Made by a program: the position numbers and the translations under genes. The notes beneath the pieces were generated by a model. It had not been told where the DNA came from and did not search any database. It saw only the letters and a program-made list of their open reading frames with translations. 64,000 bases of DNA, taken from NCBI GenBank assembly GCA_026770025.1, contig JAMXDE010000023.1, forward strand, positions 558,001 through 622,000, read 5' to 3'. The stretch's first letter is position 1. The number at the start of each line of letters is the position of its first letter. The DNA comes from Craspedostauros australis. Taxonomy: Eukaryota; Bacillariophyta; Bacillariophyceae; Mastogloiales; Achnanthaceae. Below, piece by piece: positions 10,736 through 55,000 of this stretch.

Positions 10736-13700
10736 TCACATGTTGAAGAGATCGTCAGCCGTGAACAGCGCGCCAGAATCGAAGCTGCCGCGGTTGGGAA
10801 GGACGGTATCGAGTCCTTCACTCGAATCCACACCCATCCATTCCGCGATGGAATTCCATGGACTCTCGTATGGCAATGTGGGGATCAAGCGCCCACGGCC
10901 GATGTTGTACGGTCCCTCAGGAGTCAAGTCGTCTGGGTATGTTCCACGAATGACACCACCCTTGATGCTGCCGCCCATCATGAAGCCGTTGCTCGCCCAT
11001 CCATGATCAGTGCCTCCACCCGAGTTGGGGGTCAAGGTACGTCCGAAGTCAGAGCCGGTCATGATCACGACATCATCCCACACATTCTGACGCTTCATTT
11101 CAGCCACGAAGGACTCGAGGGCCCCGTTGACATCCTTGAGCTTGGTGTTCACGTTGTTGAACCTGCTCACTGCATGATGATCGTAACCACCGTGCGAAAC
11201 GAAAAGGACTTCGCGTTCGACGCCTCTGTCACCACGCGACTTGATCCATGTCGCGATCGACTCGAAAGAGGCGCTCAAACTGTCATTGTCAAAACCTTCG
11301 ACTTGGTTGCTGTTGTAGATATCCGTCAGAGTCTTTGTGTCGTTGATGCTCTTCACCACCTGCGTCGACCAGACATCACCGTACACGCTGTTGTCTTGTT
11401 CGCTTGCGCTATTCAAGGAGTTGAGCAGGGCATTCATGTCGTCAACCTCGGCATCTCTGTTGAATGGCGCTGGGGACCAGAGCGGAAGCTGTGTCACCGG
11501 ATGATTCTTCTTTGGTGATCCCTTGACCACGCGAGAGTTGCCACCAATCATATTGGCCGAAGTCCTGTATCCAAGATCTCTCAAGGTGTCGAGCATGCGC
11601 CCGCCGACGCCAGACTCGCTGAGCTCCTTCTCGATGTCAAGTCGTTGCACTTCCTCTTGCTGGATGTTGTGTGCAAACAGCAACGTGCGCGTCTTGAGCT
11701 TCCAGTCTTCCTTGGTGACGGGTTCATCTAGAACGCCGATGTTAGCGAAAAACATGGCTTCGTTGCTATTGTACAGCGTCTGCGCAAGTGGGAATGCCTT
11801 GTTGACACCGAAGCGCTCGCACGGTTGATTGCTGGCGTTGATAGTGAGAAGATCAGACTGTGGAAGGGCAGCCGAACCACGGATATCGCTGTACTGCTGG
11901 TACAGATTAGTGGATCCACACTCCGACTTCGGAGCCACCAAGTTGAAGGAGTCCATGCCACCAGAGAACATGAAGTAGATCACTGCCTTGTACGTGTTGG
12001 TCTTTCGAGGAATAGGTGGCTCGGCTAGGCGCGGTTCGCCGGTCATTCGAATGACGTTGTTGGAATGGAACTCTGGGGTGGTGACGATCAGCTGTTGTGC
12101 CAGTCGAATCGCCTTGTCCTTGTCTGTGCCCATGAAGGGGGAAACGGCATCGATGATGCGTTGGCGGTTCACCGATTGCAAACGGCTCGCAGTCAGCAGC
12201 AGCGAAAGCTCATCGATCAGATCCGGCGCTGCAGTTGCGGTGGATGAAAACTGTAGCGACCCGAATGATCTGGATGTATCGCCGATGTTGTTTCGGGACT
12301 CGCATCCCCTCAAGCCGTTTGGCGTCTCCTCACCAAAGCCGTTGAAGCATGCTGCCGACGTGATGCCTGCCAATGAAAAGAAGAGGAGAGACGGTGAAGA
12401 TGATATGGAAAGAAGATATCGGTGAGAAGGGAAGTTGTGATATATGTATATATGACGACAGCCGAAGCCGCAGTGTGGAATACCATCGCATGGCATGCAG
12501 CAAAGCACACATGTTCCAATACAGCACTCTGGTTCCGACTTACCAAACTGAGTCATTCTGAATAGTCCAGTGAGCATCCCAGTAACTGTCGATGCTGAGA
12601 TAGCTTGGGCCTCTGGCGAGTACAGGGATGCATCTGAGACTCGTCCAGGTGGAACGAAATCAGAAAGGAAGAATGAGAACACACTTGGGGCCTCGTAGAT
12701 GCCTTCGCCGATCTTGCCCTCCATGTCTGCGAGGAATGGCCACATGATCGGACTGTCATTTTTGTACGACATGGATCGCAGGACGGCGATCACCTTGAGA
12801 AGCGGCTCGCGAAGTTGACCGTATGCTGGATCAGAGTCCAGCGTTAGCGATCGAAATTCTCTGTCGAGGAAGATGGCTGTGATCATGGCAGCGAGATCGC
12901 CATACTGGCTGGACCCAATTCCATGGTATGAGCCCTTCTTGTATGCATTCGCGACAACGTTGACGAATCGCGGAGACGGGTTGGAGAATCCGAATCGTTG
13001 GAGCATTCGGACCGCCAAGAACGGTGCGTGATTTGGGTGGTAGAAGTAGTGATTCAGAGCGGCATCAGTTTCGTGGTAGGCGTCGCGAGCCTCGGGGTTG
13101 GCGAAGCTCATAAAATGGACTGGGTTGCGAAAGGAGAAGTCATCATTTCCAATGGTGACGGTAGACTGGACGTTCTTAAGGAACAACGTTCTTCCATTGT
13201 CGTCGACTACACGGAAGACTGTTTCCTCGTCGAAGATACCGCAGGTGCTTGATGTTTCCTTCGTGTACACAGCCACTCCGGCTGGAAGATTTCTTGCACA
13301 GCTTCCACGGGACTTGTACACTCCTGTGGGCATAGATGCTGGGTCTGGAGCGGCAACAAAGAGTTTGTCCAGAATACCGTTGCGCGAAACCGAGGAATCC
13401 GTTGCGGAGCTGAAATATGGCTTGAACTGTGTATTGGTATCACAGATACATGACGATCCTATCTTGGTGCATGCTCCGCCCGACCCAGAGCAGTTGTTGG
13501 ATGCCTTGGGGAATGCGCCATCCTTCCAAAACACCTTGAAGAAGTTCTCAGTGTCTGGTCCAAGACCTGGCAAGATGGTCTGTTCGTCTGCTGCATTGGC
13601 CTCTGTCGATGGCAGTGACGGAGTTGTGACGGGGTTGCGGTGGATCATGGTCCCGCCAACGTAACCATCGGAAGGGGGGCATCATGATCACATGATTATG

Positions 13701-16700
13701 AAAACAATGGAATGAAGTGCAACGCCAAGCATAGGTTGCGCAAAGGTGTGAGAGCAGGAAGTTGTTGGCCTGTACATACTCGTGGCCAATCTGCGACCTT
13801 GTCTTGACTCATGATACTCGTGTGTGCACGTACCTGGATTATGAACAATGGCAACATGGCCTTCCACATCAACCTTGGCTTGGATAGCGCAAGAACCTGA
13901 TGTCCACCTGTACGACAGCGGTCGCCGTTCGATAACTATGTTGCTGTCTTTCGCACAAATACCTGCAGTCCTGGGTTGAATAAACGCAAGATCGCATTGC
14001 ACCTTTCCATCATCAGCGCACCTCTGTTCTGCAGTTGCGTACTTCACCCTTTCACCCTGGTAGGCACACTTCATGGTTGCTCTTGGAGTAAGTCCAGAGT
14101 CGAGATCGGATTGATCACAGCAGTTTGATTGTGCCACTTCGGTGAGAGGGTTGGCACAAAGCATGTTTGTCGTCTTCCCTCCCACGTTGACAAAGTTCAC
14201 CACACGTTTGGCGTTGTCATAGAAAGCATACTCAACGCAGGCTGGTCGGATGTACTCATAGTAGATTGGGGTTGGCAATGAATCGACCCTGATGGTGCGA
14301 ATAGTGTCGACATTGAGCTCACTACTGTCTTGGTGATTGGTGTAGTCAAGATTTTCTTGCAGAACGACTTTGCCTGGGTAGGTGCAAGCGCTGCCATCGG
14401 TTGAGCCTGCACAGAGCTTTGAATAGAGTGGGCTGGAGTTGTCAAGACTGAGGCGAATGATTTCTGGATCGTTCTCCCAAGACGCAAGATCCTGCTGGAG
14501 TTCGGGTGTGGCCTTCGATCCCAACAGACGGTATACTGCTCCTTTCCGGAGGAAATGCCGGGGCGGTAGGTCAGAGCAGAGCGGGTGCTGATCGCCAAGG
14601 AAGCCGTTGTACAAGTTTGATTTTGGGAAGATGTCGCGCCATCGACTGTGGTTGTGGGATGCACCAAAGAAGTATGTCGAGTGGTCGGTAGATAGAATGG
14701 AAGTGGCGTTTGATGGGAGGGCCGTGCGGACAGTAGAAAGCAGAAAGGCAGCAAAAGAGAGTGAGAAGATTGAAAAGGACCCAAGCGTCTGGGTGGTAGA
14801 AAGGAGACAGGCGAAATGAAGCCTCGTTCATGTGATGAATGTTTGTTCGCATCCGGCAATTCACAATCCTTCGACAGTCGGTTCTGAATCCATGTAATAC
14901 TTACGCATGGATGACCATTGGATCAATGCTGCGTCCACGCGTTTCGTGGTTGCCGCGTGTTTGCTGACGTCTCAAGCCTGTCCATGCCCTTGCAAATGAT
15001 GTGATGTCGTCGTTGTCGTACGTCTGAATTGGTTCACCCTGAGAATCCAACTTGAAAGTTCCATCCATATTCAGCTCGTTGAGCCCGATGGAAAAGAGCT
15101 GCATGATCTCTCGTGCGAAGTTCTCATCTGGATGCGATGTGCGGCCATAATCTGTTGCAAATTGGAAGCTCGTTGATCCGATCGATGACAACATCTCTCC
15201 CATTCGATCGTGGAAGGCGACTCTCTTCAGGACGTCGCGGTAGCTGCCAAAGGCACCTCGGACGAAGATATCGTAGTAGTCCAAATTGAGCTCCGTGCCG
15301 TGGACATCGCCCAGAAGCTGAGGACTCACCACAAGAATCTGGCTCAAAGCAAAGGCAACTCGTTGCCGGAGCTGATCGGCACTGTTGAGGGCAATGTGTG
15401 CCCAGATGGTCTGTCGCTGTGTGCGGTAGATATGGAAGGGCACAGGGTTGTTGGGGAAGCGATCTCTGTTGAATGATTCGACGAAGTATCCTGATCCCAA
15501 TGATGGATCGTTCGCAACTTCACCGATGGATCCACAGACGACCACGCCATTGCCACTTGGATTGACAGGGACGGATCCGAATTCTTCGCGGAGCCTGTCG
15601 GTTTGGAGGTTTGCTGGAAGCCTTGAGAATGGAATCACATCACCCAGCTTGCCGAGAAGCGGGCGCTGCTTGGGTGCGTCCACGATGTTTGTGTAAAACC
15701 TGGAATTACCATTGGAGTGGTGGCTATTTGGGAACGTGAGTATCGCCAGGTCATTCTCGGCCCACTTCTGGATATTGTATGCGCCGCCGTTGTGTGCAGG
15801 TGCCCAGCTGGTGAGGTCGTATATGTTGAGAGTCAGGCTGTGGACATGCTGCCAGCATTGGCCGTCCATTCCCTTGATGTAGCCGAGGGAGATCTTGTTT
15901 TCATCAGCTTCGTCGCAAGTTTGACTCTCAAACAAGCGGACGTCCTTCAAAAGCGGTGGTTCCTCTGCATTGCCATCAAATCCTGGTTGGAGCAACGTGG
16001 CGAATGCAGCTTCTGTCTCGTCACCGACGTGACGATAATCATTGCCCGAGCAGAAGGTGTCACCTACACGCATCCAGCGAGAGAATCGATTTCTGAACCT
16101 GCCGCATGGTGGTGGCTGGTACTGTTGCAATGTTCCTCTCTTGTCGGTGAAGATCTCGTTATTCAGTGGGAGATTTTCAACGGCATAGACCTGATCACAG
16201 CAGTAGCAACATGTAGTGGATAGTGATGGTGATGGTGATGGCGATTATATGTTGATGAAGTGATTCACAAGTGGAGGAGGGTAGAAATTAACGAATGCAG
16301 CGATGAATAGGTTGATAGATGGGCAAAGCAACCATGGGAGAATAGTGAGAGAGGCGGTGGCGTTCGGAGCGAGCGCATTCATAAGTTCGACGAACAAAGG
16401 CAGCAGCGCACAATGAATGTCCTGCTGCGTTGACTTACATAGCGTCCTTCGATGTCGTACACCCTCTTCAAGAATTCCTTTGTGAGCTTGATAGAAAAGA
16501 CAGGCGGCTCGTCGGCTCTGCAGGCTGTTGGAGCGGTGCTTAACACGCAGTGGTCTTCATTGACGAAGGATCGTGCGACGTTGGGGCACTTCACTTGGTT
16601 GTCCGAAGACAGAGCGACGGCTCCACCACCATCGACCAGCGGATTCTCGCTGGTGTTCTCCAACATCACCAAGTGAGGATCGTAGAGCAAGTACTCTGTC

Positions 16701-18010
16701 ATGCCATTCTTGGTCGTTCGGCCAAACACAGTGGGAGTGATGGCGTTTGGGTTGATCTCGATGGTGTCGCAAGTGGTATCGGCGAGATCCTCTGTGAGGC
16801 GGAACTCGTCATTGGCCTGAAAGGCCTCCCACAGCTCGCTGGTGTAGGTGTTGTCGTCGACGGTTGCAATTCCAGTGAACCCGGGGTCCATAGCAGGGAG
16901 ATCGACCATGTATGCGCGATCGCTATCGCCGCTGCCAGCGAGTGACGCGGAATCAATGTAGACAGGTGGGTTGCCATTTCTGAACTGGCGGCACCTGCTA
17001 TTGTCCTGGCCAGGCTTCTTGACGCGGAACGGCGAGGAAGTACTCTCTTGGTAGAACGTAGCACCCGTTCCGCAAATCACGTATTTTGTATTGAGCTCTG
17101 CGTCGATGGCGGACCCAACATTGATGGTTCCGGTGGAGTCCGAAAATCCGACAAGCTCGATCTTGGAGAGGACCAGTGTGCGTGGCACACCATCAACCTT
17201 TATGAGGTACTCGTCTCCTCCAGCGGATTCAATCGTCAAGGACTTGCCAGCGTCTTGTGAGGTGAAGGCGAAGTTCCTCCAGCGGGATTCCTTGGCGCAT
17301 GGATGCGGACCTGCCTCGCCAGCAATCATGGGCTTCTCGGCCCGTTCATTGGCTCGCTTGCGATAGAACTCGCGATGGGAAGTCGCGGGAAGCTGCATCT
17401 GTCTGATGATCCATTGCTTGAAGCTGCTGAAGGTGTAGGATAAGTCGGAGCTTGTCAAATCAGCTGGCGTCACACCAAATGATGCTTTCTCCAAGAAGCG
17501 GGCGATGAGAGCCTTCTTGCCTTCCTCTCTGCCAGTGCGTGCATATCGGCCGTACGAAGTGAGGACGTAGGCCTCGGAGTCTCCCAGCGGTGGCAGAGTC
17601 ATGCGGCATCCAGTGTTGCCTGCTTCTGGATTGATTCCGGAACAATCGATGGAAAGCTTCCCAGCAGCACGACCAGCGGAGACCTCCCAATCCCTGTTGT
17701 CGTAGCTGCGAGCGATGGGTGCGAAATAGGGATCTTCGGGATCGGTGGACACTGCGGTTACGGTGCACACTCCAGGTTGAAACTTTGTTAACTCGACGCT
17801 CGTCTCGGTAAGCTCAATGGGGGCATCTCGGATGCTCGGGCAGTCGTACGCAGTGAACTGCGCAGCGGTGATGGTCGGGAAAGCGATGACGAGTGTGATT
17901 GCCACCAACGCCATGCGGTGAAGGACACCGCCATATGCGGCGGATGGTTTCGTCATTGGACGGTGGGGATGCTTGGATGTCATGGTGATGTTGCTATTGT
18001 GTATTTTCAT
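10736..18010 (-). CDS. Secreted DUF1800-DUF1501 fusion protein, five exons
   Basis: Reading splice sites gives exons 18010-16439, 16190-14905, 14645-13834, 13602-12544 and 12366-10736, which join in frame to 2119 residues. Donors are GTAAGT or GTACGT. A hydrophobic run at about 33-51, ending TAAQ, suggests a signal peptide, so the product should be secreted or sit in the outer membrane system; several ATGs precede it and the first (18010) is used here. DUF1800 starts near residue 165 (ARFLEKASFG), includes the conserved HPDENFAREIMQLFSIG stretch in exon 2 and ends in exon 4. DUF1501 fills exon 5 from about 1700 (FSGGMDSFNL) to near the end (TGSDFGRT, GGGTDHGW). The biochemical role of both families is unsettled; DUF1501 resembles alkaline-phosphatase-fold sulfatase-like proteins. 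The DUF1800 part is much longer than bacterial relatives, with Cys-containing insertions in exon 3. The exon 3-4 join is the least certain. Confidence 0.85.
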
Positions 18011-21000: not shown

Positions 21001-21556
21001 TGGATCGTGCCCAACCGGCATGAAGTTTGGCAGCTTGGCAGCAATTTTGGGCCATCAGGCCATTTCGCGAGTTCTTCCTTTTCATTGGCTGTTGTGTGAA
21101 TTGCGACCAGATGGAAGAGAGTATCCAAAACAACAACAAGGAACAGAGAAAGTCACAAAAAGTGGAACGTGAAGAAAAGAAAGGTCACAAAGATTTTGGT
21201 TGCAGATCTGAATCAAACCAGCGTTGTCGACCACAAGCAGCGGATTTGTACGAGTACCCAGTAGCAGTCGTAACAATACCCACAACGTCTCCGACAGTCA
21301 CAGACACAGGCACAACTGAGTACGAGGCACTGGTCAGAACCATACTGACACGAGAACTGGCACGTGTGCTACTACTACCACAGAGCGAGAGTTGGAGTTC
21401 GCACCAAACATCACACAAACAGAAACGAACATCGCCAACAGCACAAGCGCACACTTCCAGAGTCGTCGCACTTCTGCACAAGCTACCAGCTACGGTATTG
21501 CTCATCACCACACAACCAACAGCAAAGCGCAATCGAAGCAAGGATCTCTGGCGAAC
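18011..21556. other. 3.5 kb divergent intergenic region
   Basis: This lies between two divergently transcribed genes, the DUF1800-DUF1501 gene (minus) and the PARP gene (plus), and should hold both promoters. Next to the minus-strand start, at about 18000-18075, the coding strand is rich in CA and runs of A. Next to the PARP start, roughly 21390-21556, the plus strand is likewise rich in CA, CAA and ACA. A CT/GT microsatellite is at 18481-18548. Open frames in between (for example 20531-20923, plus) give no recognisable protein. Confidence 0.5.
18481..18548 (+). repeat. CT/GT microsatellite
   Basis: A run of CT dinucleotides passes directly into GT-rich sequence (GTATGTGTATGTGTGCGCGGG and further GTG repeats). 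It is about 470 bp upstream of the DUF1800-DUF1501 start. No coding potential. Confidence 0.85.
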
Positions 21557-24500
21557 ATGGCAAGGACGAAGAGGGCGGTAGGCGCGAAGAAGAAGAGCGG
21601 CGCGGCTGCCGTTGCGAAGAAGACCTCGGGCAAGTCCGAAGACGGCAAACCGAAGGCGAAGTTAAGCCCGAAGGCAAGTCCAGCCAACTCCGGCGCAGCC
21701 ATGGTCGCCACCACCACGAAGGCCGAGAAGAAGAAGGCCGACAAGGCAACCCCAACGAAAGCGAAAGAGAAACCCAAAGTCCACGTGATCAAGGATGAGT
21801 ACGAGATGAAGTTCGCCTCGCTGGAGGTGGTGCTGGCAATCGCTTCGATGGATGCAACCGATATGAAGGAAAAGTATCTGGTGGGGCGTTTGCAGGAGGA
21901 TGTTCTCATGGGAGCAGCGGACGAGGCTGAGGTGGGGATCACTTGGTTCGACTACGACGACGACGAGGAAGATGCTGACGACGATGGCAACGCCAACACT
22001 ACAACCACCACTACCACCACCACCAATCCCAACAAGTATTGGGTTGCTGGAAACGACGACGCGGTTGCGGTTGGCTCGTTGGTCTGCTCCATCTCGCATC
22101 TGGCCAAGAGCAGCTACAGCACCACGCACGGCGAGCTCCTCACCATCAGCGAGGAAGCTTACATCTACGCCAACCAAAAGCTCGAGGAACAACTGGAGGA
22201 TGACTACGACGCAGATGCCGATTCGCAGTTCGGAGACGTGGCGGTGGCAAAGCGCGTGAGACTGGCTGCGCGCAAGACTGGCAGTAAGTCGGAGATGGTG
22301 ACTGGCCCTCGTTCTGGTTCCGCTGTAGCCATCGATGACGACGATGATGATGATGATGACGATGACGACCCTATGTCCTCTATCGGTGGCAAACGAAAGC
22401 GGAAGGGCAAGGGCGGCAGCAAGGCGAAGAAGTCGGCGGGAGGTAGCAAGGCCAAGCGCGCAAGAACCATCAGAGGCGTTACTCCACGCCCTTCCTTCAA
22501 GTTGGTGGACAACCCATTCGGCGTCAAGAACGGAAAGATTGCCAAATTTGATGGAGACATCGAGCGATGCAGCAAGGAAGTAGTGCGAGCAGTTGCTGCA
22601 AAGGACACGAAGGCGTTGAAGGCTGCCATTTCATCCGCAGCCACATCCATCACCAGCCTCCACCATATCCAATGCCTTGCCTTCCCCATGACGCCACTCA
22701 TCCAAGCCATTGTCATGGGAGACAAGACGGCGTTGAAGACCTTGCTCAATGCATACAAGGAGGAGCGAGACAGCTTGATCAGGACTCCCCAGCGCCCCAG
22801 CATGCAGCCTTGCGCCTTGCCCACGTTGTCCACCGGAAAAATCACTTCACGCCATGCCAACTACAACAGGCGCGCGATCAATGCATCACGCGGAGGCAGG
22901 GAAGGCAACAACGCGCTGTTGCATGACACACGAGGCAACAGCTACGCCACCTGCTCCCACCGTTCCATCGGCGTGCCTGGTAAATCGCTTCCCACCGAGC
23001 TGATCTCTGTCCTAAGTGATTGCAAGACGCTGACCTTGGCCGAGGACTTCGACGAGATCGCAACCGACATCCTCGATCTGGCCGAGGCAACCTTTTCCAT
23101 GAGATTCCCAGATTGCGATTTTCTGGATCAGGCTCTGAAGGGAGGTCATCGCAACATCGTCAAACGCATCATCGATCAGAAATTTGCCATGCCCCACAAC
23201 ACCAACATGTACAATTTCCTCCACGTCGAATCTTTGCGCGATGTTCCCCACAAGAGTAGCACCGACGACGTCAACTCCAATGCCAATGCCAACGCTAACA
23301 CCAGCACTGGCGATGCGGACGACAAAGAAGGAGAGGACGAAAGCAAGGCCAGCGCCACCAAGACCAAAGCCAAAAACAAGGCCAAGGGCAAAGGCAAGGG
23401 CAAGGGCAAGACCGCGGAGAATGAAAAAACAACCGAAGATGAAGACACAGAAATGGACGCAGACGACGCAAACGCTGGGGCCTCCGCACGTGCCACAGCC
23501 ACAGCCACAACCAGCGGCAATAGCAATGTCAACGGCAACGACGGCAACGGAAATGAAGCGACCAAAACGGATTTAGGGAAAGTGTTCTCGAAGGACTTCC
23601 AGGCACGTTCTGTCATCAAAAAGACCGAAGACGGAACTCGATTTACACCATTGATGACTGCGTGCATCAACCCCAACGCGATCTTCCTCAAGGCCCTTCT
23701 TCATGTTGCTCCAGAACATGCCCAGACCGCCGACAATCAACAGACTGGATTGCTGCACTACGCTGCTTCATGCGAAGGTGATGGTCCACTGCGCTTCCTC
23801 CTGGAGGAGTACAGCCTTCCCAAGGTAGCTATCGACAAGAACAAGGACACCCCCCTGCACTTCGCTGCGCGGTGTTCACGAACGCACAACATCAGGGCTC
23901 TCCTCCAGGATGCCGAAGGTGATCAACGCAAGATTCTCCTGAACGCCAAGAACTCAACAGGTCTGACCCCCATCCACCTCGCCACCTACTCCAGACGCTC
24001 CGCGGCGTTGCAAACAGTGCAAGCCATGCTTGAGGAAGGCGCTGATGCCAACGCACCCAGCACTGCTGCCGCCAATCGCAAATCGCCGATGCACATTGCT
24101 GCGAGTCTGGGCGACCTAGAAATGCTCAAGCTGCTCATCCGCTTCAAGGGCAACCCGGTCAAGGGCGACAAGCTGAAGCGCACCCCGCTCATTCACGCCT
24201 GCATGAACGGCCATGCCCATGTCGTGTCGTACCTTCTGCGGCTGGGGGTCAGCACCGATGCATGCGACTCTAGCAACAACAGCCCCATGCACTACGCTGT
24301 CGCATACGGGTGGGACGACTGCGTTCGGCTTCTCCTGGATGCCGGCGCTGCTCCGGATGCGAAGAATTCCTGGAACACGACACCTCTCTCTGTGGCAGTT
24401 CAGAAGGGCCGTCACGCCGTCGCCAGATTGCTGCTTGAGCTACCTAACGTGGACGTGAACTTCAAGGACGACGAAGGCAAGTCAACGTTCTTCAAGCTGA

Positions 24501-27500
24501 TGGAGGGCTACATGGAGACGCGTATGCGCACCAACGTCGCGCTTAATGTGGATGCCGCCAAGACCAGCAAAGGCAGCAGCAGCAAAACCAAGAAAACCAA
24601 AACTGGTGACAAGAGTGACAGCGATGATAAGAAGGAAGCTGCGGAGGAAGAGGCTGTTCGGAAAGAATTGCCTTGGGCTCTGCGCAAGCTGCTGCAAAAC
24701 AAAGACGTGGATGTGACATCGACCACGTTGGATGGTTTCAACATGCTTCATGTGCTGGCAGCGCAGCCGTTCAAAGTTCCCAACGTCACACCGGCCCGTG
24801 TGCTTGGCTTGGCACGGTTGCTGCTGAAGATGGGCAACTTCGACATGGATGCCAAAGACGAAAGTGGAATGCCTGCCATCTTCCATGCTGTGGAAGCTGA
24901 CAACGGCATCATGATGGGGTTCTTGCTGAAGAATGGCGCCACGATCAGCGCAGACATCAAGGACAGCGAAGGGAAGAACATCGTCCATCACTTACTCGGC
25001 TCTCGCCCCTACCGTTGTCGTGAAGATCTGGAACGAGTCGAGGATGCTGTAGGGAAGGAAACCTTTGCTGCAATGCTCGGCGCATTGGATGCGATGGGTC
25101 GCTCTCCGTTGCACATGGCTGTGCAGTACATGGCGAATTGCAACGTGGCCGACCCTATGTGGGAAAAATCCATGACTTGTGTCAAAGGTGTCCTTACCAA
25201 GCATCCACAACTGGCGACACAGCCCATCGACGAGGTTCCCTTGTTCCATGATCCCGAGTTCTTATGCCCCGTCCTGGCTGAAGTCCAGGCTGACAAACGT
25301 GCGGAGACATCACGCAACACGCGCCATGGCTGGCACCACTCACAGTCGCACTCGCAGTCGCCCCTATTGGTCACAGGCAAAGACATCATCGATGCGTCGA
25401 GGATCCGAAATGTGCTGGAAACATACGACCAGGCTGTCGCCTTTGGCGGGAATGACGTTGGACAAACCTTGCTGCATATCACCTGCTTCGATGAGCGACC
25501 GCAGAGAACCAAGCAAATGATGGAATGGCTTCTTCCGTTGTGCAAGGACCAGGTGAACAGCAAGGCACCGTGCGACGGCTTTCCCTTGACGCCGATGCAG
25601 GTGCTGACACACAGAATGCTGCCTCGAAACGTCGCAAAGCATGTGAACCTTCGAAGACAAATCGCGCAATGTTACGACCACTTCTTCGAGGTGCTGCAAA
25701 TGTTCGTCGATGCAGGATCACATGACATCAACACTGTCCCACGAGACGATGCTGTCGACAACGCGGATGATGACATGGCTGATGTGACGGCAGGCGATGG
25801 CGGCGACGATGGTGGTGGCAGCGGCTCCACCAACGCAGCTGCAAATGCAAATGCAGATGCAGATGATGAAGGCTCAGATGCAAAGAAGGTGGATGATACA
25901 GAGCAAGTCAAGAAGATGGTGCAGCTTGCCACCGAATTCCTCGATTCGAAGAAAGAGGATGTCGGGGTCAGCGTCGTGAAGCACTTTCGTGACATCATGT
26001 CACAAAGACAGAATCGTCTGAAGAGTCGCCGCAAATCTGCGAATGGCAACAGTGCTGGCAGTAGCTCCAGCAACAGCGCGCGGAGGAACAACAACCAGAC
26101 AAACGACACAGAACCGCTGGTGAAGATTCTTGCGAATTGCGAATTCATCCCCAGAAGCGCGTGGCAAAAGCTGCGTGATGACTTTGGTTTGGACCTTTGC
26201 GCCCAGAGCTCCTCGACAGGAGACACAGCGCTGCACATTGCGCTCCGTCGGCAGGACGACCAGCTCGTGACCTACATGACGGACAATTATCTGTCGTTAA
26301 TAACACAAGCGAATTTGGAAGGGGAGTTGCCGATTCACATCGCCGCCAAGAAGGACAACGCGAGGCTGGTCAAGTTGGTGCTGCGGTTCATATCGAAGCA
26401 TGCAGCGACAAGTCAGGCCACCACCGGTTCCGTCAAGGATAGGACAGATGACGATGTGAATGATCTGGTCACCAGAGAAATCAACAGGAAGGATTCCTCA
26501 GGCAGAACGGCATTCCATTTCAGTGTCGAGAAGGCAACAGCACGTCGGGAGGAGGCTCTGGAGCCATGCGAGGCGCTCTTCATGAGAGCTGGTGCGCGGC
26601 TGGATATTGTCGACTCGCGCAACAGAACGCCCTTGCATTACTGCTTTCTCGAACATGCATCTTCGATGGATCATTGGAACTTTCCGCATTGTCTCTCGTC
26701 GACGACTCACGACAGAGTCGATCTCGTCAGCGCTCTCCTGGCGGCCAAAGGTGCCGACAAGAGCGTGTCCATCGCCGACAACCATGGACGCACGCCTCTA
26801 TTGTACGCGGCGGCATACAACTCCACCGTCTCAAGTTTGCTCCTCCTCTCGAAGAAGGCGGATCTCTTCCACCAAGACAACGACTCCAACACCGCTGCCA
26901 ACATCGCGGTCCTCCGCGGGCACGAAAATTACATCATCACCATGCTCAAGAGCCAGGGATCGGACGCGCTGCCGCCGCTGGTTGATGTCACGGATGTGCG
27001 TCGCACAGTCACGATCAAGCCAGGGACGAAAGAGAAGAAGGTAACGGAGGTCAGCAGGCAGATCCAATCCATCGTGTGGCATGCCATCAAATCCCGCTTC
27101 AATGGTTTGGTGTACATTCTGCTGGACACATCCTTCCCGTTGCACACGGCTTGTGTCGACGCATTGAGCAACGAGTCCTTCCAGCTCGTGCGCAAGCTCC
27201 TCACGACCAGTTCGTTGGATGTTGTGCGCCACATCGACATGGCGACGAAGAGGTCTCTTCTGCACGAGGTTTGCCGCGTCAAGAGGTACAGCGACCATCG
27301 ATGGAGCACGACGTTGGCTGAACTTCTGGTCGAAGCAGACGTGAAAGCAACGGGGGTTGATGCTGATGGCAAACTCCCGTTGCATTATGCTATTCTCAAC
27401 CAGCACAAGCCTCTCATCACTTACCTCGTTGCCAACTTCCGCAACGCAGTCAATGTGGCTGACAATGCGGGGAGATTTCCTCTGAGCATCTACATGACAT

Positions 27501-30500
27501 CAATGTTGAACCGTGGGAACAGCGAGAGCATCTTGGCATTGTTCCGAACGCTTGCTCCCACCGAGCACGACCTGACATCGGTGAAGGTTAACAAGGTCGT
27601 CACATCCGTCTTATCCGTCGCCCAGACAAGTCCCAAGAAACCGAGTGTCGCAAACAGTACTGGCGCTGGGGAGAGAGACCACGCCCTGAACGACACCGAC
27701 GACGACGACGACTGCAGTGATGATGACAGTGATCAGGACAGCGACGAAGACAGCCAGGCGAGCACCAATGATAGGAAGGGAAACCTTGGTGGGCATGGCT
27801 ACGGCAAAATCGAATTTGCTCCTGGCCCCAATGTGGCATCAGTTATCAACGAGCTGAAAAAGGCGGAAGCATTGGCAAAGAAACAGAACAGCGAAGCCAT
27901 GGTGCAGGCCGCTTCAGAAGAGGGCGAAAAGCGACAGGAGGTGCGCCACTCGACGTTAATCATCTTGGCGTTGCAGTCTGGCAACTTCGACCTTGCCCAG
28001 TACTTGATTGACAAGGGTGCTCTGATCGATCTCCTCGACTCAAGCGGCATGTCAGCGCTCCACCATGGCGTCTCCAGAGGCTGCCAGAAAACCGTCGAAT
28101 TCCTCGTTCGGAATGGTGCTGACCTCGACCTGGCCGTTGACAACGAGCAAGGTTTGACGCCCTTGATCATGAGCATCGTCAACAATCGTCATGACATCTT
28201 CCATCTGCTGCTGCGCTCCGGCGCAGACGTGGAGAAGCCGTGTCTTGGGAGGGGCATGACCATCATGCACCACGCCTGCCAGCAAAATCGTGCCACACTC
28301 ATGGCCTCAATTCTCGAGGCAGTTGCAAGTCGCGGTGACGACTTGAAGCTGGATTCCAAGTCCAAGACGCTCGAGGGTCATCGTCTTCTGCTGCGATTTT
28401 CCAACGATGTCACCTTGTACCCCGCGAGCATCGCTGACAAAGGCAAAAATGCAGTTCTTGCCGACAAACAGCAGGTGCCTGCGTCAAAAATCGTGGCTGG
28501 ATACGACGTGTCATCGAAGCACCTGGATAGTCTCCTCCATTTTGCCGTCCTGTGGAATGCCCGTGGCGGCTCGTACTCACCCTCGAACGGAGTACGCTGG
28601 GCACAGATCCCGAGGTACAACGACGATGCTTCCCGCAACGAGGCGCGGCGGAGGCTGAAGCATGTCTTTGGTGCAGAGCACATCGCAGTTGGGTTGCACG
28701 ATGAACACCTCACCAAACCTCTGCCGGAAGGGTCCTACGTCATCTTCCAGCGAAGTGGCGACGGCAAGGATTACGCGTCAGCGTTGAAACCATGGTGCGA
28801 GGCAAGGGTTGTGAAATGCTACAAGAACGGAACCTACGACTTGCAAACCTTGCGCGGTCCGCTGGTGACGAACGTCCTTCGTCAGCAGATCAGACCTTGG
28901 AAGGCGACGCCAGGCTTGTGGGCGACCGACGCTTCTGGCGGCACGGGAAGGACAGGGGCGAAGAAGAAGAAGAAAAAGGCGGCGAAGACGAAGCAGAAGT
29001 CCAGGGCCGCCCGGCTGCTGGAAATGAAGGATGGTAGCGGAAGGACGGCTCTCGAGTATGTTGTGGCTCCCGTCAAATTCGGATCTTACGAGAACATGGA
29101 AGCGGCGGAACTCCTTTGCAAGCACGGTGCTGTTGTGAGCGAGGAGATGCTCGCGAAATGCAGGGCGGGCAGTCAGTTCCATGCCAAGCTGGCTGAGCTC
29201 GGCGGCTTAGATGTGCCCATGTCTCCAGCCGAGGGAGGCGGCGATGCCGATGTTGCTACCGACAATGCATCTGGGCCCACTTCGTCACGCACAGCAGCAC
29301 AGTCTGCATCAGTCTCAGACCTGAAACCGATCTCTGATGATGAGCTGGAGGTCGAAGTCCAGAAGGCCCTCGTGGAGATGGAAACGAGCGGGCTTATGAA
29401 GAAGAAGGATGATTTCGCGCCAAAGGTCAACCCTTGCTGCGAACTGAAGGGCCGCCTCATCCGGGTCCTACCCTTCACCGACGAAGACATTCCGGGTGCT
29501 GTGGTTTCGGATACAAGCAGGGCCTTCTTCACGATCACCACCACCAAGGTGGAGCTGCACCACTATGGAATCTCAGAGAACAAGTACTACAAGATGCAAA
29601 TCGTCGAGGACCCCATCAAGAAGCTCTTTGTTCTCCTGACGAACTGGGGGCAAACAGGCGACTACGGTGGACAGAAGCAGGAAACACCGTACGGAGTCCG
29701 GAAGGAGGCGGTGGCTGAGTTCTGCAAGGTCTTCAAGGCCAAGAGCGGCAACACCTTCGACGACTACCTGGCGGGCAAGTTCAAGCCGAAGTTTGGGAAG
29801 TACAAGACGATCAACCTCCTCGGGAGCAACTATGAACAGCCCAAGCTTCCCAGCATCACATCGCTCGTGAAGAAGGCAACCGATAGTGGCACGGAGTCGC
29901 TGTTGAGCTCGGTGATCAGGGACACGCTGGTCACTTTGGCGGATCGCGCGGAAATGAACAGAAGTGCCAACGAGCTTGGGTTGCAACAAGATCAGTGCCC
30001 GTTGGGACGCATCTCCATCCGAATGGTCCTGGCGGCGGCCGAGAAGCTGGACGCCATCGCTGCGGCACTGGACAAGGTCGAAAAACTTGACAAGCCCGAA
30101 CAGCTGAAGGAGAAGCGCGAGGCCATGGATGACGTCGCTCTGTTGTCGGGGGAGTACTACGAGCTCCTGCCAACGAAGGAGGGCGACGACGCGCTGGAAC
30201 CGCTCACAGATGAAACCCTGAAGGAACAGCGCAACGTCATATCGCAGCTCAAGGATCTCGCCGTCTCCACCCAACTGCTCATGCTCGCAAACTCCAATGC
30301 TTCTCTGGTCCACCCGCTCGACTACATCTACAGAGCCTTGAACGCCAGCATACGCCCCATGTCGGTCAAAGAAACCGAAAGGGTTGGAGTGGAACAATAC
30401 TTCCGCAACACCATCAGCTCTGCCGAAGGTCTCGTCGTTAGCCAAGTGTTCGAGATGCGCCGGAACAGCGAATCCAGCAACAGAGAGATGGGGAATCGCA

Positions 30501-31495
30501 GGTTGTTGTGGCACGGCACGAGCAACGCCAACGTGCTGGGGATCATCAGGGAGGGTCTTCGCATCGCGCCATCGACAGCCGAAATCGCCGGCAATGCGTT
30601 TGGTGATGGTGTGTACTTCGCTGACATGGCGCAGAAATCCTTCGGATACTGCCGCGCGCACTTGGACAGCGGCGCGAGGACCATGCCGCGAGCCTACTTC
30701 TTCCTTGCAGATGTTGCGCTGGGAGATCAGGGAGTGGTGACCGAGGCCAATTGGGGTGAAACAAAGATCGATGCAGACAGCGTCTTCGCGTTGGGGCAGG
30801 AAGGTCCGGACGTCACCCATGACACTGTGTTCAAGTCCGGGACGGTCTTCCCGCTGGGCAAGACGTCACCCAATCCCAAGCGCGCCACCACGATCAAGTG
30901 GGTGGAGTTCGATTTTGATGACGACAACTTCCCCAAAGTATCGGAGGCTATTGAGAATGCAAGGTCGTCAAAGGATTCCATATTCCCTGTGAAGATAGGC
31001 GTCGAATATAAAGGTAGAGCGTACACGGCTGTGCTCTCGGACGGTCCTTTCTCCAGCACCGCCAAACTCATCCCCATCATCAAACAAAAGGATCTCGCGA
31101 AAGAGGACGATGATGGCGACGACGACGAGAAGAGCGGCAGCAAGAAAAGAGGGAAGAAGGGAGCTGCCGGCAACGACAAAAAGAGGCGGCGAAAGAACGA
31201 CGACAACGACGGAGACGACGAGGATGCCGATGCCGATAGCAACAACGCGATGGTAGATGGAGAGGACGGAAGCGGCGACGAAGACGATGAGGACGACGAG
31301 GAAGAACTACCAGAGCACCTCACACGGGAAATCAAACTGACCCGGTACGATGGTGGCAACCAGGGATGTGTCCACTACAACGAATACGTGGTGAACGACG
31401 TGAAACGAATCAACCTCCGCTACTTGGTGGAGGTGACTAGCAGACACTGGGTGGAGAAGAACTGGAAGACGGTCCGCACACACAAAACTGGATAG
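21557..31495 (+). CDS. Giant ankyrin-WGR-PARP (poly-ADP-ribose polymerase)
   Basis: A single open frame encodes about 3312 residues from the ATG at 21557 (context GCGAACATGG); the frame is open further upstream but has no ATG there. Order: a histone-H1-like Lys/Ala tail (1-85); an Asp run near 260; ankyrin repeats over roughly 345-2550, broken by a low-complexity Asn/Lys/Ala stretch near 570-675; a Tudor-like segment near 2393-2450; a WGR domain near 2676-2757 (NWGQTGDYGG); a helical PARP regulatory domain near 2770-2915; and the ADP-ribosyltransferase domain to the end. The H-Y-E triad is present as His2986 (LLWHGTSN), Tyr3020 (GDGVYFAD) and Glu3276 (YNEYVV), so poly-ADP-ribosylation is expected. 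WGR and regulatory domains tie it to DNA-damage-sensing PARPs, and basic clusters suggest nuclear location. About 160 extra residues separate Tyr and Glu. Tankyrases lack WGR; C. elegans PME-5 has a comparable ankyrin-WGR combination. It converges on pyruvate kinase. Confidence 0.93.
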   Translation: MARTKRAVGAKKKSGAAAVAKKTSGKSEDGKPKAKLSPKASPANSGAAMVATTTKAEKKKADKATPTKAKEKPKVHVIKDEYEMKFASLEVVLAIASMDATDMKEKYLVGRLQEDVLMGAADEAEVGITWFDYDDDEEDADDDGNANTTTTTTTTTNPNKYWVAGNDDAVAVGSLVCSISHLAKSSYSTTHGELLTISEEAYIYANQKLEEQLEDDYDADADSQFGDVAVAKRVRLAARKTGSKSEMVTGPRSGSAVAIDDDDDDDDDDDDPMSSIGGKRKRKGKGGSKAKKSAGGSKAKRARTIRGVTPRPSFKLVDNPFGVKNGKIAKFDGDIERCSKEVVRAVAAKDTKALKAAISSAATSITSLHHIQCLAFPMTPLIQAIVMGDKTALKTLLNAYKEERDSLIRTPQRPSMQPCALPTLSTGKITSRHANYNRRAINASRGGREGNNALLHDTRGNSYATCSHRSIGVPGKSLPTELISVLSDCKTLTLAEDFDEIATDILDLAEATFSMRFPDCDFLDQALKGGHRNIVKRIIDQKFAMPHNTNMYNFLHVESLRDVPHKSSTDDVNSNANANANTSTGDADDKEGEDESKASATKTKAKNKAKGKGKGKGKTAENEKTTEDEDTEMDADDANAGASARATATATTSGNSNVNGNDGNGNEATKTDLGKVFSKDFQARSVIKKTEDGTRFTPLMTACINPNAIFLKALLHVAPEHAQTADNQQTGLLHYAASCEGDGPLRFLLEEYSLPKVAIDKNKDTPLHFAARCSRTHNIRALLQDAEGDQRKILLNAKNSTGLTPIHLATYSRRSAALQTVQAMLEEGADANAPSTAAANRKSPMHIAASLGDLEMLKLLIRFKGNPVKGDKLKRTPLIHACMNGHAHVVSYLLRLGVSTDACDSSNNSPMHYAVAYGWDDCVRLLLDAGAAPDAKNSWNTTPLSVAVQKGRHAVARLLLELPNVDVNFKDDEGKSTFFKLMEGYMETRMRTNVALNVDAAKTSKGSSSKTKKTKTGDKSDSDDKKEAAEEEAVRKELPWALRKLLQNKDVDVTSTTLDGFNMLHVLAAQPFKVPNVTPARVLGLARLLLKMGNFDMDAKDESGMPAIFHAVEADNGIMMGFLLKNGATISADIKDSEGKNIVHHLLGSRPYRCREDLERVEDAVGKETFAAMLGALDAMGRSPLHMAVQYMANCNVADPMWEKSMTCVKGVLTKHPQLATQPIDEVPLFHDPEFLCPVLAEVQADKRAETSRNTRHGWHHSQSHSQSPLLVTGKDIIDASRIRNVLETYDQAVAFGGNDVGQTLLHITCFDERPQRTKQMMEWLLPLCKDQVNSKAPCDGFPLTPMQVLTHRMLPRNVAKHVNLRRQIAQCYDHFFEVLQMFVDAGSHDINTVPRDDAVDNADDDMADVTAGDGGDDGGGSGSTNAAANANADADDEGSDAKKVDDTEQVKKMVQLATEFLDSKKEDVGVSVVKHFRDIMSQRQNRLKSRRKSANGNSAGSSSSNSARRNNNQTNDTEPLVKILANCEFIPRSAWQKLRDDFGLDLCAQSSSTGDTALHIALRRQDDQLVTYMTDNYLSLITQANLEGELPIHIAAKKDNARLVKLVLRFISKHAATSQATTGSVKDRTDDDVNDLVTREINRKDSSGRTAFHFSVEKATARREEALEPCEALFMRAGARLDIVDSRNRTPLHYCFLEHASSMDHWNFPHCLSSTTHDRVDLVSALLAAKGADKSVSIADNHGRTPLLYAAAYNSTVSSLLLLSKKADLFHQDNDSNTAANIAVLRGHENYIITMLKSQGSDALPPLVDVTDVRRTVTIKPGTKEKKVTEVSRQIQSIVWHAIKSRFNGLVYILLDTSFPLHTACVDALSNESFQLVRKLLTTSSLDVVRHIDMATKRSLLHEVCRVKRYSDHRWSTTLAELLVEADVKATGVDADGKLPLHYAILNQHKPLITYLVANFRNAVNVADNAGRFPLSIYMTSMLNRGNSESILALFRTLAPTEHDLTSVKVNKVVTSVLSVAQTSPKKPSVANSTGAGERDHALNDTDDDDDCSDDDSDQDSDEDSQASTNDRKGNLGGHGYGKIEFAPGPNVASVINELKKAEALAKKQNSEAMVQAASEEGEKRQEVRHSTLIILALQSGNFDLAQYLIDKGALIDLLDSSGMSALHHGVSRGCQKTVEFLVRNGADLDLAVDNEQGLTPLIMSIVNNRHDIFHLLLRSGADVEKPCLGRGMTIMHHACQQNRATLMASILEAVASRGDDLKLDSKSKTLEGHRLLLRFSNDVTLYPASIADKGKNAVLADKQQVPASKIVAGYDVSSKHLDSLLHFAVLWNARGGSYSPSNGVRWAQIPRYNDDASRNEARRRLKHVFGAEHIAVGLHDEHLTKPLPEGSYVIFQRSGDGKDYASALKPWCEARVVKCYKNGTYDLQTLRGPLVTNVLRQQIRPWKATPGLWATDASGGTGRTGAKKKKKKAAKTKQKSRAARLLEMKDGSGRTALEYVVAPVKFGSYENMEAAELLCKHGAVVSEEMLAKCRAGSQFHAKLAELGGLDVPMSPAEGGGDADVATDNASGPTSSRTAAQSASVSDLKPISDDELEVEVQKALVEMETSGLMKKKDDFAPKVNPCCELKGRLIRVLPFTDEDIPGAVVSDTSRAFFTITTTKVELHHYGISENKYYKMQIVEDPIKKLFVLLTNWGQTGDYGGQKQETPYGVRKEAVAEFCKVFKAKSGNTFDDYLAGKFKPKFGKYKTINLLGSNYEQPKLPSITSLVKKATDSGTESLLSSVIRDTLVTLADRAEMNRSANELGLQQDQCPLGRISIRMVLAAAEKLDAIAAALDKVEKLDKPEQLKEKREAMDDVALLSGEYYELLPTKEGDDALEPLTDETLKEQRNVISQLKDLAVSTQLLMLANSNASLVHPLDYIYRALNASIRPMSVKETERVGVEQYFRNTISSAEGLVVSQVFEMRRNSESSNREMGNRRLLWHGTSNANVLGIIREGLRIAPSTAEIAGNAFGDGVYFADMAQKSFGYCRAHLDSGARTMPRAYFFLADVALGDQGVVTEANWGETKIDADSVFALGQEGPDVTHDTVFKSGTVFPLGKTSPNPKRATTIKWVEFDFDDDNFPKVSEAIENARSSKDSIFPVKIGVEYKGRAYTAVLSDGPFSSTAKLIPIIKQKDLAKEDDDGDDDEKSGSKKRGKKGAAGNDKKRRRKNDDNDGDDEDADADSNNAMVDGEDGSGDEDDEDDEEELPEHLTREIKLTRYDGGNQGCVHYNEYVVNDVKRINLRYLVEVTSRHWVEKNWKTVRTHKTG

Positions 31496-52095: not shown

Positions 52096-55000
52096 CTAGG
52101 AGGCGCTGATGATGCTGATGCCCGTGCTACTGGCTGTGTCGGGATCCTCCATCTGCGACGGGAGGCGATCCAGGCTGCGCTGTCCGGAGTGGTAGGCCTT
52201 GACCATCTTCTCCACAATCTTTTCACCCTTGCTCTCCCACTCGCGACGGTTCTCCATAGCGTAGTTCAGGCATTCCGCGCTGGCGACGCCAAACACGTTG
52301 CATTCCTTCAGCTTCTTGGCCAGCGGGATGACATAGTTGTCGTAGAACCACAACTCACCCTTGAACCAACCCACGGATGGGTCCTTCTCTCCACCTCTTC
52401 CATTGCGGAAGGCCGAGTACATCTCGTGGAAGAGGCGCTCATTCCACTTGGTGTAGATATGCCAACTGCAACGTATAGTGTTGATGGGATAAACAGAGCG
52501 TTTGGTTTGGTTTGGTTGGTTGGACATGTGAGCATGTGATAGGCCACGTAAAGTGAGCAACAGCAACAGTAGGCATGGATAGGAGACACGTGGTGAGTGA
52601 CAGGAGTTGGACGGGTGCATCGTACATACGGGTATGATTGGTGGAGTGAATGTGCTTGCACAGCATGGTCACAGAACGAGCATCATTTGCACATGCAAAC
52701 AGAGTATCATCGCATCGTGGTACCGCTTCTCTCGCCCACACACACATCTGGCACACGCATCAATACGGACACACCACCATCGGCATCGACAGCAATAGAA
52801 ACAGCGGCAGCAATATCAATGCCATGGTCAACAATGACGTCATTGTCCGGGCCAGCATTCCAAATTGTCGCACTTACTGTTGCATGGTGTGCGACACATC
52901 AGCCGCCTGAATGATGTGCTCGATCACGATTGTTGCCATGAGGTTGGTGTCATCGTTGCCCTGGTGGAAAGCCTTGTCCCAGCGGTTGTTGCGGAACGAT
53001 TTCAGATCCTTGTCGAAGATGTCCGTTGCGATGACGGAGTTGACAACCAGGCTGCGGAACCGCCGGAACTCGCTGTCGTTGCCGTAGATGCACTTCTGCA
53101 AGTCTCGGTACTCGTCCTTCATCAGCAGTTTCCAGCTCATGTCCACAGAGTTCTGTTCGGCGACGCTCTTCTCCCCGTACTTCAAGGCTGGTTCGGCCTT
53201 CTCCTTGATGAGCTGCATGTTGGAAACTCCGCTGTGGTCGACGTCATGGATGAGCGCAGAGAAGACGATGGCGAACTGCGTCAGCGGATCGGAGGTGATG
53301 CCGTACGTGTAGTTGTGCAGGTTCGACGCTATCTTGCGCATGGACTGCCTACGGTTGTACACGTGCTCCTGTGACACGACGCGCTTGAGCAGCTTGTTCG
53401 CCGACATGGTGACGTGGCTCGCATGCTCAAAGTTGTGGAACGGGTTGTCGTCGTGGTAGAGGCAAGCGATTTCCGTGACGTATTGTTTGAGTTGGAAGGC
53501 AACGGCGTATCCCAGGTCGATGGAGTCTGCATGCCTGCTGGACTTCAGCCCCTTGTGGTTGAACTCGGGCATGACAATGGCTTCCGACACTTCGTAGATG
53601 GGATTGCCGTTGCCAATCTGCGCAGGCGAACGGAATGACCCGCTGCTCTTGCTCTTCGTCTCCTTGCGCCTCGAGACGACCTTGCGAAGCAGTTTGGACA
53701 ATATCTCCACATTCCAATCAATCAAACGCTGGTGCTTGTGATTCTCAACGACTTCCGACAGCTCCTGGAAGTTGCTCTGGGTGCTCTCGCCCCACACCAT
53801 GGAGCGCGACATGTCACGCACGGACATGGCGATGGATCTTTTGCTGAATCCCGACGACCCGAAGGATCCAAGCGAATCCGTGGAGTCACCAAATGGACTG
53901 TCCATGGCGCGGCTCAGGTTGATCCAATACGTTTGAATCTTGCCCTTGCCTTTGGCTTGGACCACCTCGTCACGCGGGCAGATCCAATGGGTCTTGTTAC
54001 CCGCGATCAGCAGCTCGGCCGTCGCCTGCGAGCACTGGATTTTGCCAGCCTTGCCAGTGCTTTCCATCCGAGCGGCCGTGTTGACCGTGTCGCCGAACAG
54101 TTGAAACCGCGACTTTTCACCCCGCAGCACGCCAGCCGTGACTGGTCCGCTGTGCATACCCAATCGCATGGACAGATCGCCGGTATCGGGCCCAAGCTTG
54201 ACTTCCAGGCTCTCCACCAGATCCTGCATCTTGCTCATGCATTCGTAAGCGAACTTTGCCATGATCACTGCGTGGTCCTTCTGAGGATCTGTTCTTGTCC
54301 ATGTCAATATCCGAGTAGACATAGTTCGTATCATACAAAGTATTGGATGCATCAATAAAATAAATGCACGTTACGATGGGATGAGTATCATTCGAGAAGC
54401 AATTGCGTTGTAGAGCATGACGTGATCATCCATTGTGCAAGTATGACCATGGTTGCGTTTGCCATTCCGCACGGTCGAGTATCCCATTGGTTTGGGTGAT
54501 AGTTGTGGTGAAAGCAGAGCGATGAGAGTGTAAAAGAGTGAGAACAGGTGAATGAGGTGCTGGATTAGGTGTTGTTGATGAGATCATAGAAACATCTCTT
54601 GCCCATGCATGTCATGGTGTGATGTGATGTGGCCTTGCTCGTCGAAGATGAGCACACCCAGGCAAGGCAAAGAGGAAAGGAAGACAAATGAATCCATGGA
54701 AAAGCACAACATGCAATAGAGCGAAGCCTTTCGCTGCACTTCGCGACAATGCCTGAATTGATAGCAATCCTTACCCGGTAATCCAGTTACAGCCACGTAG
54801 CAGTCACCGATGGTTTCGACTTTGAACACCTGTTGGTTTGGAGCGGTGCAATTGGAGCGTTGTGTTTGGATTGGTACGATTTGGTGGAAACAAGTTCAAG
54901 AATTGGTTGAGGTGTTGAGTTGAGTTTCGCATTCGATGAGATCAGTTTGAGGGGATATGATGAAATGCAGAAATGCAATACTGCTGTGTTGTTCTCGCCA

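Follow-up and report, generated by a model that had tools for sequence, protein, structure and literature searches.

A diatom gene joining the DUF1800 and DUF1501 families in one chain with a cytochrome b5-like, probably heme-bearing domain

The gene on the minus strand at 10736-17983 of a 64,000-nucleotide stretch of Craspedostauros australis contig JAMXDE010000023.1 (the window) raises the question of why two protein families that bacteria encode in adjacent genes, DUF1800 and DUF1501, stand here in a single chain, and what that chain might do. The answer that we favour, tentatively and at somewhat less than even confidence, is that this is an intact gene for a secretory-pathway, probably heme-bearing and redox-linked fused version of the bacterial DUF1800-DUF1501 pair. 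The new and most useful element of the analysis is a cytochrome b5-like domain lodged in DUF1800, within the first of the two long insertions that divide it. By sequence comparison the odd architecture appears well supported, and the function that it suggests would be testable.

Five exons joined across four GT-AG introns yield one frame of 2110 residues, 38 of them cysteines, with no internal stop, as the earlier note on this DNA had proposed. In the joined translation, exon 1 (16439-17983) encodes residues 1-515, exon 2 (14905-16190) residues 516-943, exon 3 (13834-14645) residues 944-1214, exon 4 (12544-13602) residues 1215-1567 and exon 5 (10736-12366) residues 1568-2110 and the stop; introns 1 to 4 measure 248, 259, 231 and 177 nt. 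The predicted introns are placed by comparison with the nearest paralogue, L027, in which GT..AG is conserved at each of the four introns and the GTAAGT donor of exon 1 recurs; identity to it is 82-87% in exons and 74-78% in introns. Reading phase, together with the match to L027, decided the acceptor of exon 4, ATCGACAG. Both families score above their Pfam cut-offs in the joined protein, and the order claimed earlier, DUF1800 before DUF1501 in one chain, is thereby confirmed: DUF1800 (PF08811) reaches 167.3 bits (cut-off 26.1, E 8.3e-49) in two stretches, and DUF1501 (PF07394) 92.3 bits (cut-off 27, E 4.5e-26, profile positions 2-338 of 390). The best stretch of DUF1800 is its middle, residues 772-940 (14916-15422, profile positions 68-206). 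An N-terminal piece, residues 155-215 (17339-17521) with the motif ARFLEKASFG, has no Pfam match itself and was recognised by eye against the bacterial ASRFLGQASFG and from a motif table; the C-terminal part (12068-13090, profile positions 223-417), interrupted by intron 4, was matched by Pfam on an open reading frame (ORF) reading through that intron. A 25-residue linker follows in the joined translation (11993-12067), at the place where most of the bacterial genome DUF1501 proteins examined carry a signal peptide, and then DUF1501 itself, residues 1694-2046 (10931-11989). The junction between the two families is located within exon 5, where the end of DUF1800, the linker and the entire DUF1501 form one uninterrupted frame. 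At the other end of the protein, the 12 most hydrophobic 19-residue windows all start within residues 15-27, which makes an N-terminal signal or anchor likely (residues 1-41, 17861-17983), so that the signal proposed earlier for a secreted protein is probable on the basis of hydropathy. Alternative starts are the in-frame ATG at 18010, which the earlier note had chosen, or Met24, just ahead of the hydrophobic stretch.

The gene has further copies in the genome. The genome assembly searched (74.8 Mb in 90 contigs) contains 61 chlorophyll-binding and 88 silicon-transporter (PF03842) matches, which make a diatom the natural reading of this genome. In family searches that scored best candidates only, nine places matched DUF1800 and ten matched DUF1501; DUF1501 lies downstream at all nine DUF1800 places, and the tenth, L023, is a fragment standing alone without DUF1800. 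Besides the window gene, therefore, eight loci carry DUF1800 followed by DUF1501, one of them damaged in DUF1501. The C-terminal part of DUF1800 and DUF1501 share one ORF in L019 (1871 codons), L020 and L021 (1227 each) and L022 (1187), while the window gene and L024 to L027 have common exon limits near residues 515, 943, 1215 and 1568 and a DUF1501 ORF that also includes the DUF1800 tail. Between the window gene and L027, which has no stop, the ratio of nonsynonymous to synonymous substitution (dN/dS) is 0.17 over 2105 codons, with regions at 0.13-0.24 and the linker at 0.19 on 25 codons. We read the gene, from these comparisons, as a working single reading frame under purifying selection. 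On contig G000:C36, L020 to L022 and the fragment L023 have similar neighbouring ORFs: two very similar copies are separated by about 15 kb, the third is located near 346 kb and the DUF1501-only fragment near 411 kb, an arrangement that looks like recent segmental duplication.

The bacterial counterparts show what was changed. Of 398 genomes sampled from one phylum (Pseudomonadota, as the record of L042 names a Porticoccaceae bacterium), 51 gave a query match at E 1e-10, and 34 loci were taken from 29 of these 51, chosen from the best matches and hence not an unbiased rate. Both genes are present in 33 of the 34, the exception being L104, where the contig ends about 2 kb away, and as separate ORFs in 16 of 19 IMG/VR loci. 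In total, 49 of 53 loci have DUF1800 and DUF1501 as adjacent separate ORFs, in keeping with the adjacency asserted earlier, and none of the 53 has a fused ORF. DUF1800 precedes DUF1501 in 48 of the 49 pairs, L075 being reversed; the automated count was 47 with two reversed, and L086 only seemed reversed because its stop-to-stop frames overlap. The bacterial pair thus shares families, adjacency and order with the diatom protein, and differs from it in consisting of two genes and in matching neither the b5 profile nor either insertion described below. A bacterial fusion as the source was considered, as bacterial frames of about 1100 codons looked fused, and was rejected because all pairs in the 34 loci are separate ORFs; a viral origin gained no support, with nothing fused among the IMG/VR loci and one phage record giving a short match. 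A twin-arginine-like pattern is carried by the DUF1501 ORF in 32 of the 34 genome loci (RRDF and RREW standing in the remaining two) and in 3 of the 19 IMG/VR loci, where at least one, that of L113, is probably upstream of the true start. A twin-arginine (Tat) motif is likewise reported in the accessible part of PMC5122149, and that of PMC4452313 refers to genomic clusters of DUF1501 that come with signal peptides. The diatom DUF1501 has no twin-arginine signal and the linker alone at that place; the bacterial signal would have been replaced by this short linker, which suggests that both halves enter the endoplasmic reticulum on one signal. The IMG/VR contigs without the pattern on DUF1501 are L107-L109, L111, L112, L114-L117 and L120-L125. 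On a Sphingomonas plasmid (L130) the pair sits among cytochrome oxidase genes, a single case that makes no pattern.

The two insertions measure about 550 and 420 residues. Where the diatom DUF1800 is matched in two Pfam stretches, the bacterial L079 and L110 give one, of about 420 positions. In bacteria the RFL..TFG motif stands 57-76 residues ahead of the DUF1800 core (11 motif-bearing proteins of 48) and the gap between the two core pieces has a median of 54 residues (48 proteins) and a maximum of 409, in L121. The diatom motif is at residue 162 and the core profiles start near 780 and 1392, the first ending near 921 (converted from ORF positions), so that the corresponding distances are about 618 and 470 residues. 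Insertion 2, residues 944-1360 (13166-14645, limits by eye), is cysteine-rich and holds intron 3, and the ORF of exon 3 has no Pfam match. phmmer matched neither insertion to any ORF in the 53 loci from bacteria and IMG/VR. The DUF1800 protein of L121 (1524-4856, 1111 codons) has its 409-residue gap where the diatom insertion 2 sits, with no detected similarity between them.

The cytochrome b5-like domain occupies residues 620-705 (15621-15878), within insertion 1, with H648 and H672 as candidate axial ligands. It was recognised from weak Pfam matches, a profile search of PDB and the invariance of these histidines. Each of the eight copies scanned matches Pfam Cyt-b5 (PF00173) weakly at E up to 0.1 (best E 5.6e-5), L021 having been left out as a near copy of L020. 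A profile built from the eight copies found b5 or b5-domain proteins in 57 of the 60 PDB matches listed (best E 2.2e-4), the remaining three being a putative kinase and two glycosyltransferases. The alignment has 18 invariant columns, two of which are the histidine of an HxGG motif and a downstream histidine, spaced by 24 residues in seven of the eight rows and by 26 in L019. The axial histidines of bovine b5 are likewise 24 residues apart. This invariant ligand pair within an otherwise variable domain argues for heme, and we consider it probable from the alignment that the domain carries one. The profile matches all nine loci carrying both families and, at E up to 10, no ORF in the 53 loci from bacteria and IMG/VR. 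Cytochrome b5 modules attached to other enzymes are familiar (flavocytochrome b2, sulfite oxidase and Scs7 are among the PDB profile matches listed); those have other partner domains, whereas the diatom module sits inside a DUF1800 insertion and apparently in the secretory pathway. The earlier description of the architecture stands as to the fusion; it had overlooked the b5-like domain, the paralogues and how large the insertions are.

What might such a protein do? The chain would run from an N-terminal signal or anchor through a DUF1800 split by two insertions, the first with a b5-like heme domain, to a C-terminal DUF1501. The GG.D, D.H, F.R and DHGW-type motifs of DUF1501 are common to its diatom and bacterial members, and in 30 sequences Asp14, His110, Asp281, His283, Arg327, Asn332 and His339 are invariant and Asp338 nearly so, an Asp/His set that would fit a metal site. 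We propose that DUF1501 may be an enzyme with a metal site whose substrate is extracellular or part of the wall, that DUF1800 may serve as its partner or scaffold, and that, outside the cytosol, the b5 heme may deliver electrons to the pair or accept them from it, as the position of a heme domain inside DUF1800 suggests. The single-chain form makes a physical interaction of DUF1800 and DUF1501 very likely and, alongside the bacterial adjacency, supports the functional link that had been drawn from the fusion. DUF1501 may be a neighbour or partner of the PSCyt-PSD cytochrome genes. In the accessible part of PMC5615132, cytochrome c domains of the planctomycete type are joined to PSD domains, beside unnamed genes. 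These Planctomycete and Verrucomicrobia genes resemble ours in joining a heme domain to poorly known exported domains, and differ in having cytochrome c rather than b5 and PSD rather than DUF1800; the one PSD5 match, on L019, is weak (14.5 bits, cut-off 34.2, E 0.047). It is possible, though doubtful, that DUF1800-DUF1501 is in general an extracytoplasmic redox-coupled enzyme, and that diatoms fused the genes and built in a b-type heme carrier of their own where bacterial relatives may use separate cytochromes. If so, the fused protein would offer a first way into the chemistry of these two widespread families, which a heme-bearing single chain narrows to a question that one recombinant protein could test, and would show how a bacterial exported pair was rebuilt for the eukaryotic secretory pathway. 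The literature searched, mainly non-subscription, names no fused DUF1800-DUF1501 protein, and the texts examined, in their accessible parts, give no activity for either family.

Several results weigh against the reading that we favour. Pfam Cyt-b5 scores 15.3 bits on exon 2 and, where printed, 15.4-21.1 bits on the other copies, below the cut-off of 23.7, and is absent from the Pfam list of the joined 2110-residue protein at E up to 0.1. The HPGG motif is altered to HNGG in the window gene, L020-L022 and L027 and to HGGG in L026. DUF1501 has no PDB relative at E up to 1, and hhalign of DUF1501 against the phosphoglycerate mutases gave a probability of 0.4%, with no positive control. In one copy, L025 (G000:C11:1476500-1486499), the frame changes and a stop falls within DUF1501; this copy is either a damaged pseudogene or an assembly error. 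Finally, the main text of PMC5615132, as far as accessible, does not mention DUF1501. In other searches, L019 against PDB gave two weak TFIIB matches only, NCBIfam gave none for seven of seven proteins at E up to 0.01, and two hhalign comparisons of unrelated families were negative, as expected.

The altered HPGG motif in several copies also feeds the rival that survives best, though we hold it to be rather unlikely: an extracellular hydrolase-like enzyme without redox function, acting for example on esters of sulfate or phosphate in the diatom coat, in which the b5-like insertion would be a degenerate, heme-free binding or structural module. DUF1501 has DH and D.H motifs, and these are similar to the metal sites found in the alkaline phosphatase superfamily. 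Against this stand the two axial-type histidines, invariant in eight of eight copies while most columns vary, and the negative hhalign result; membership of DUF1501 in that superfamily gained no support from hhalign to the one member family compared, the phosphoglycerate mutases.

A second rival, unlikely and a little more so, is a role for the protein in maturing or modifying chitin or some other polymer of the wall or coat. DUF1800 and DUF1501 genes occur in bacterial operons of horizontally acquired chitin synthases, as reported in the accessible part of PMC5122149, and PF03142 was matched 10 times, at 9 loci, in this genome. Those operons hold the same pair as separate bacterial genes, whereas the diatom copies share no contig with a chitin synthase: PF03142 matches have none in common with DUF1800 or DUF1501 matches in this genome, and no chitin synthase linkage emerged within it. 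One Vibrio plasmid (L127, source field Skeletonema costatum) has the pair near a GH19 gene, a single case from which no pattern emerges; the other four annotated plasmid neighbourhoods, with their incomplete gene tables, contain no chitin gene.

A calcium or biomineralisation role, in which the family would act in the secretory pathway towards building coccoliths or frustules, is improbable. DUF1800 is enriched among calcium-raised Emiliania huxleyi genes (2 of 10) in the accessible part of PMC7563939, which like our gene concerns algal DUF1800 proteins, and the host here is a diatom; the enrichment amounts to two genes, however, and bacteria have the pair too. Two separate genes or a mis-joined model is the least credible rival by far and, for separate diatom genes, was rejected: intron 4 (12367-12543) is open in frame in the window gene, but its residues are missing from L019, exons 4 and 5 of L027 stand in different frames, the junction is single-frame in L019, L020, L021 and L022, the linker is under purifying selection, and, with DUF1800 running on into exon 5, the separate start there that the earlier note had named as its refuting case would split DUF1800.

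How did the fusion arise? The seven diatom rows are monophyletic in the DUF1501 tree (support 99 in the Shimodaira-Hasegawa-like approximate likelihood ratio test) and in the DUF1800 tree (100), and split in the same two ways in both: L019, L020 and L022 (98 and 94 in the DUF1501 and DUF1800 trees, respectively) against the window gene, L027, L024 and L026 (99 and 96). The same clade and split in both trees imply that the halves were joined before the family duplicated. These trees dropped L021 (a near copy), L023 (a fragment) and L025 (damaged), as well as L104, L116, L118, L119, L120, L122, L124 and L125 (partial, irregular or duplicate); a concatenated tree (53 rows, 761 columns), which also dropped L105 and L106 and put L104 back, gives the diatom clade a support of 100/100 on a stem of 1.04, within a poorly supported backbone. 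Sampling comprised genome rows of one phylum, two plasmid rows of Gammaproteobacteria and IMG/VR contigs. In approximately unbiased tests, with groupings named after the trees were seen, the diatom DUF1501 grouped with L075, L077 and L111 was not rejected (p 0.355), nor was the diatom DUF1800 grouped with L105 and L106 (p 0.337). As to the earlier suggestion that a bacterial pair was acquired and joined, one donor group for both halves is not borne out by the long stem and the permissive tests; a single transfer of both halves from bacteria seems plausible from these trees.

Other observations concern the surroundings. The silicon-transporter family is strikingly large: 32 of the 88 PF03842 matches cover 480 or more of the 513 positions, and 28 of these 32 have no in-frame stop. 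Elsewhere in the window, a 3391-codon ORF at 21320-31492 combines ankyrin repeats with WGR, PARP regulatory and PARP catalytic domains, a single ORF at 52877-54370 carries nucleotide cyclase and cyclic-nucleotide phosphodiesterase domains, and two further ORFs belong to DUF6824.

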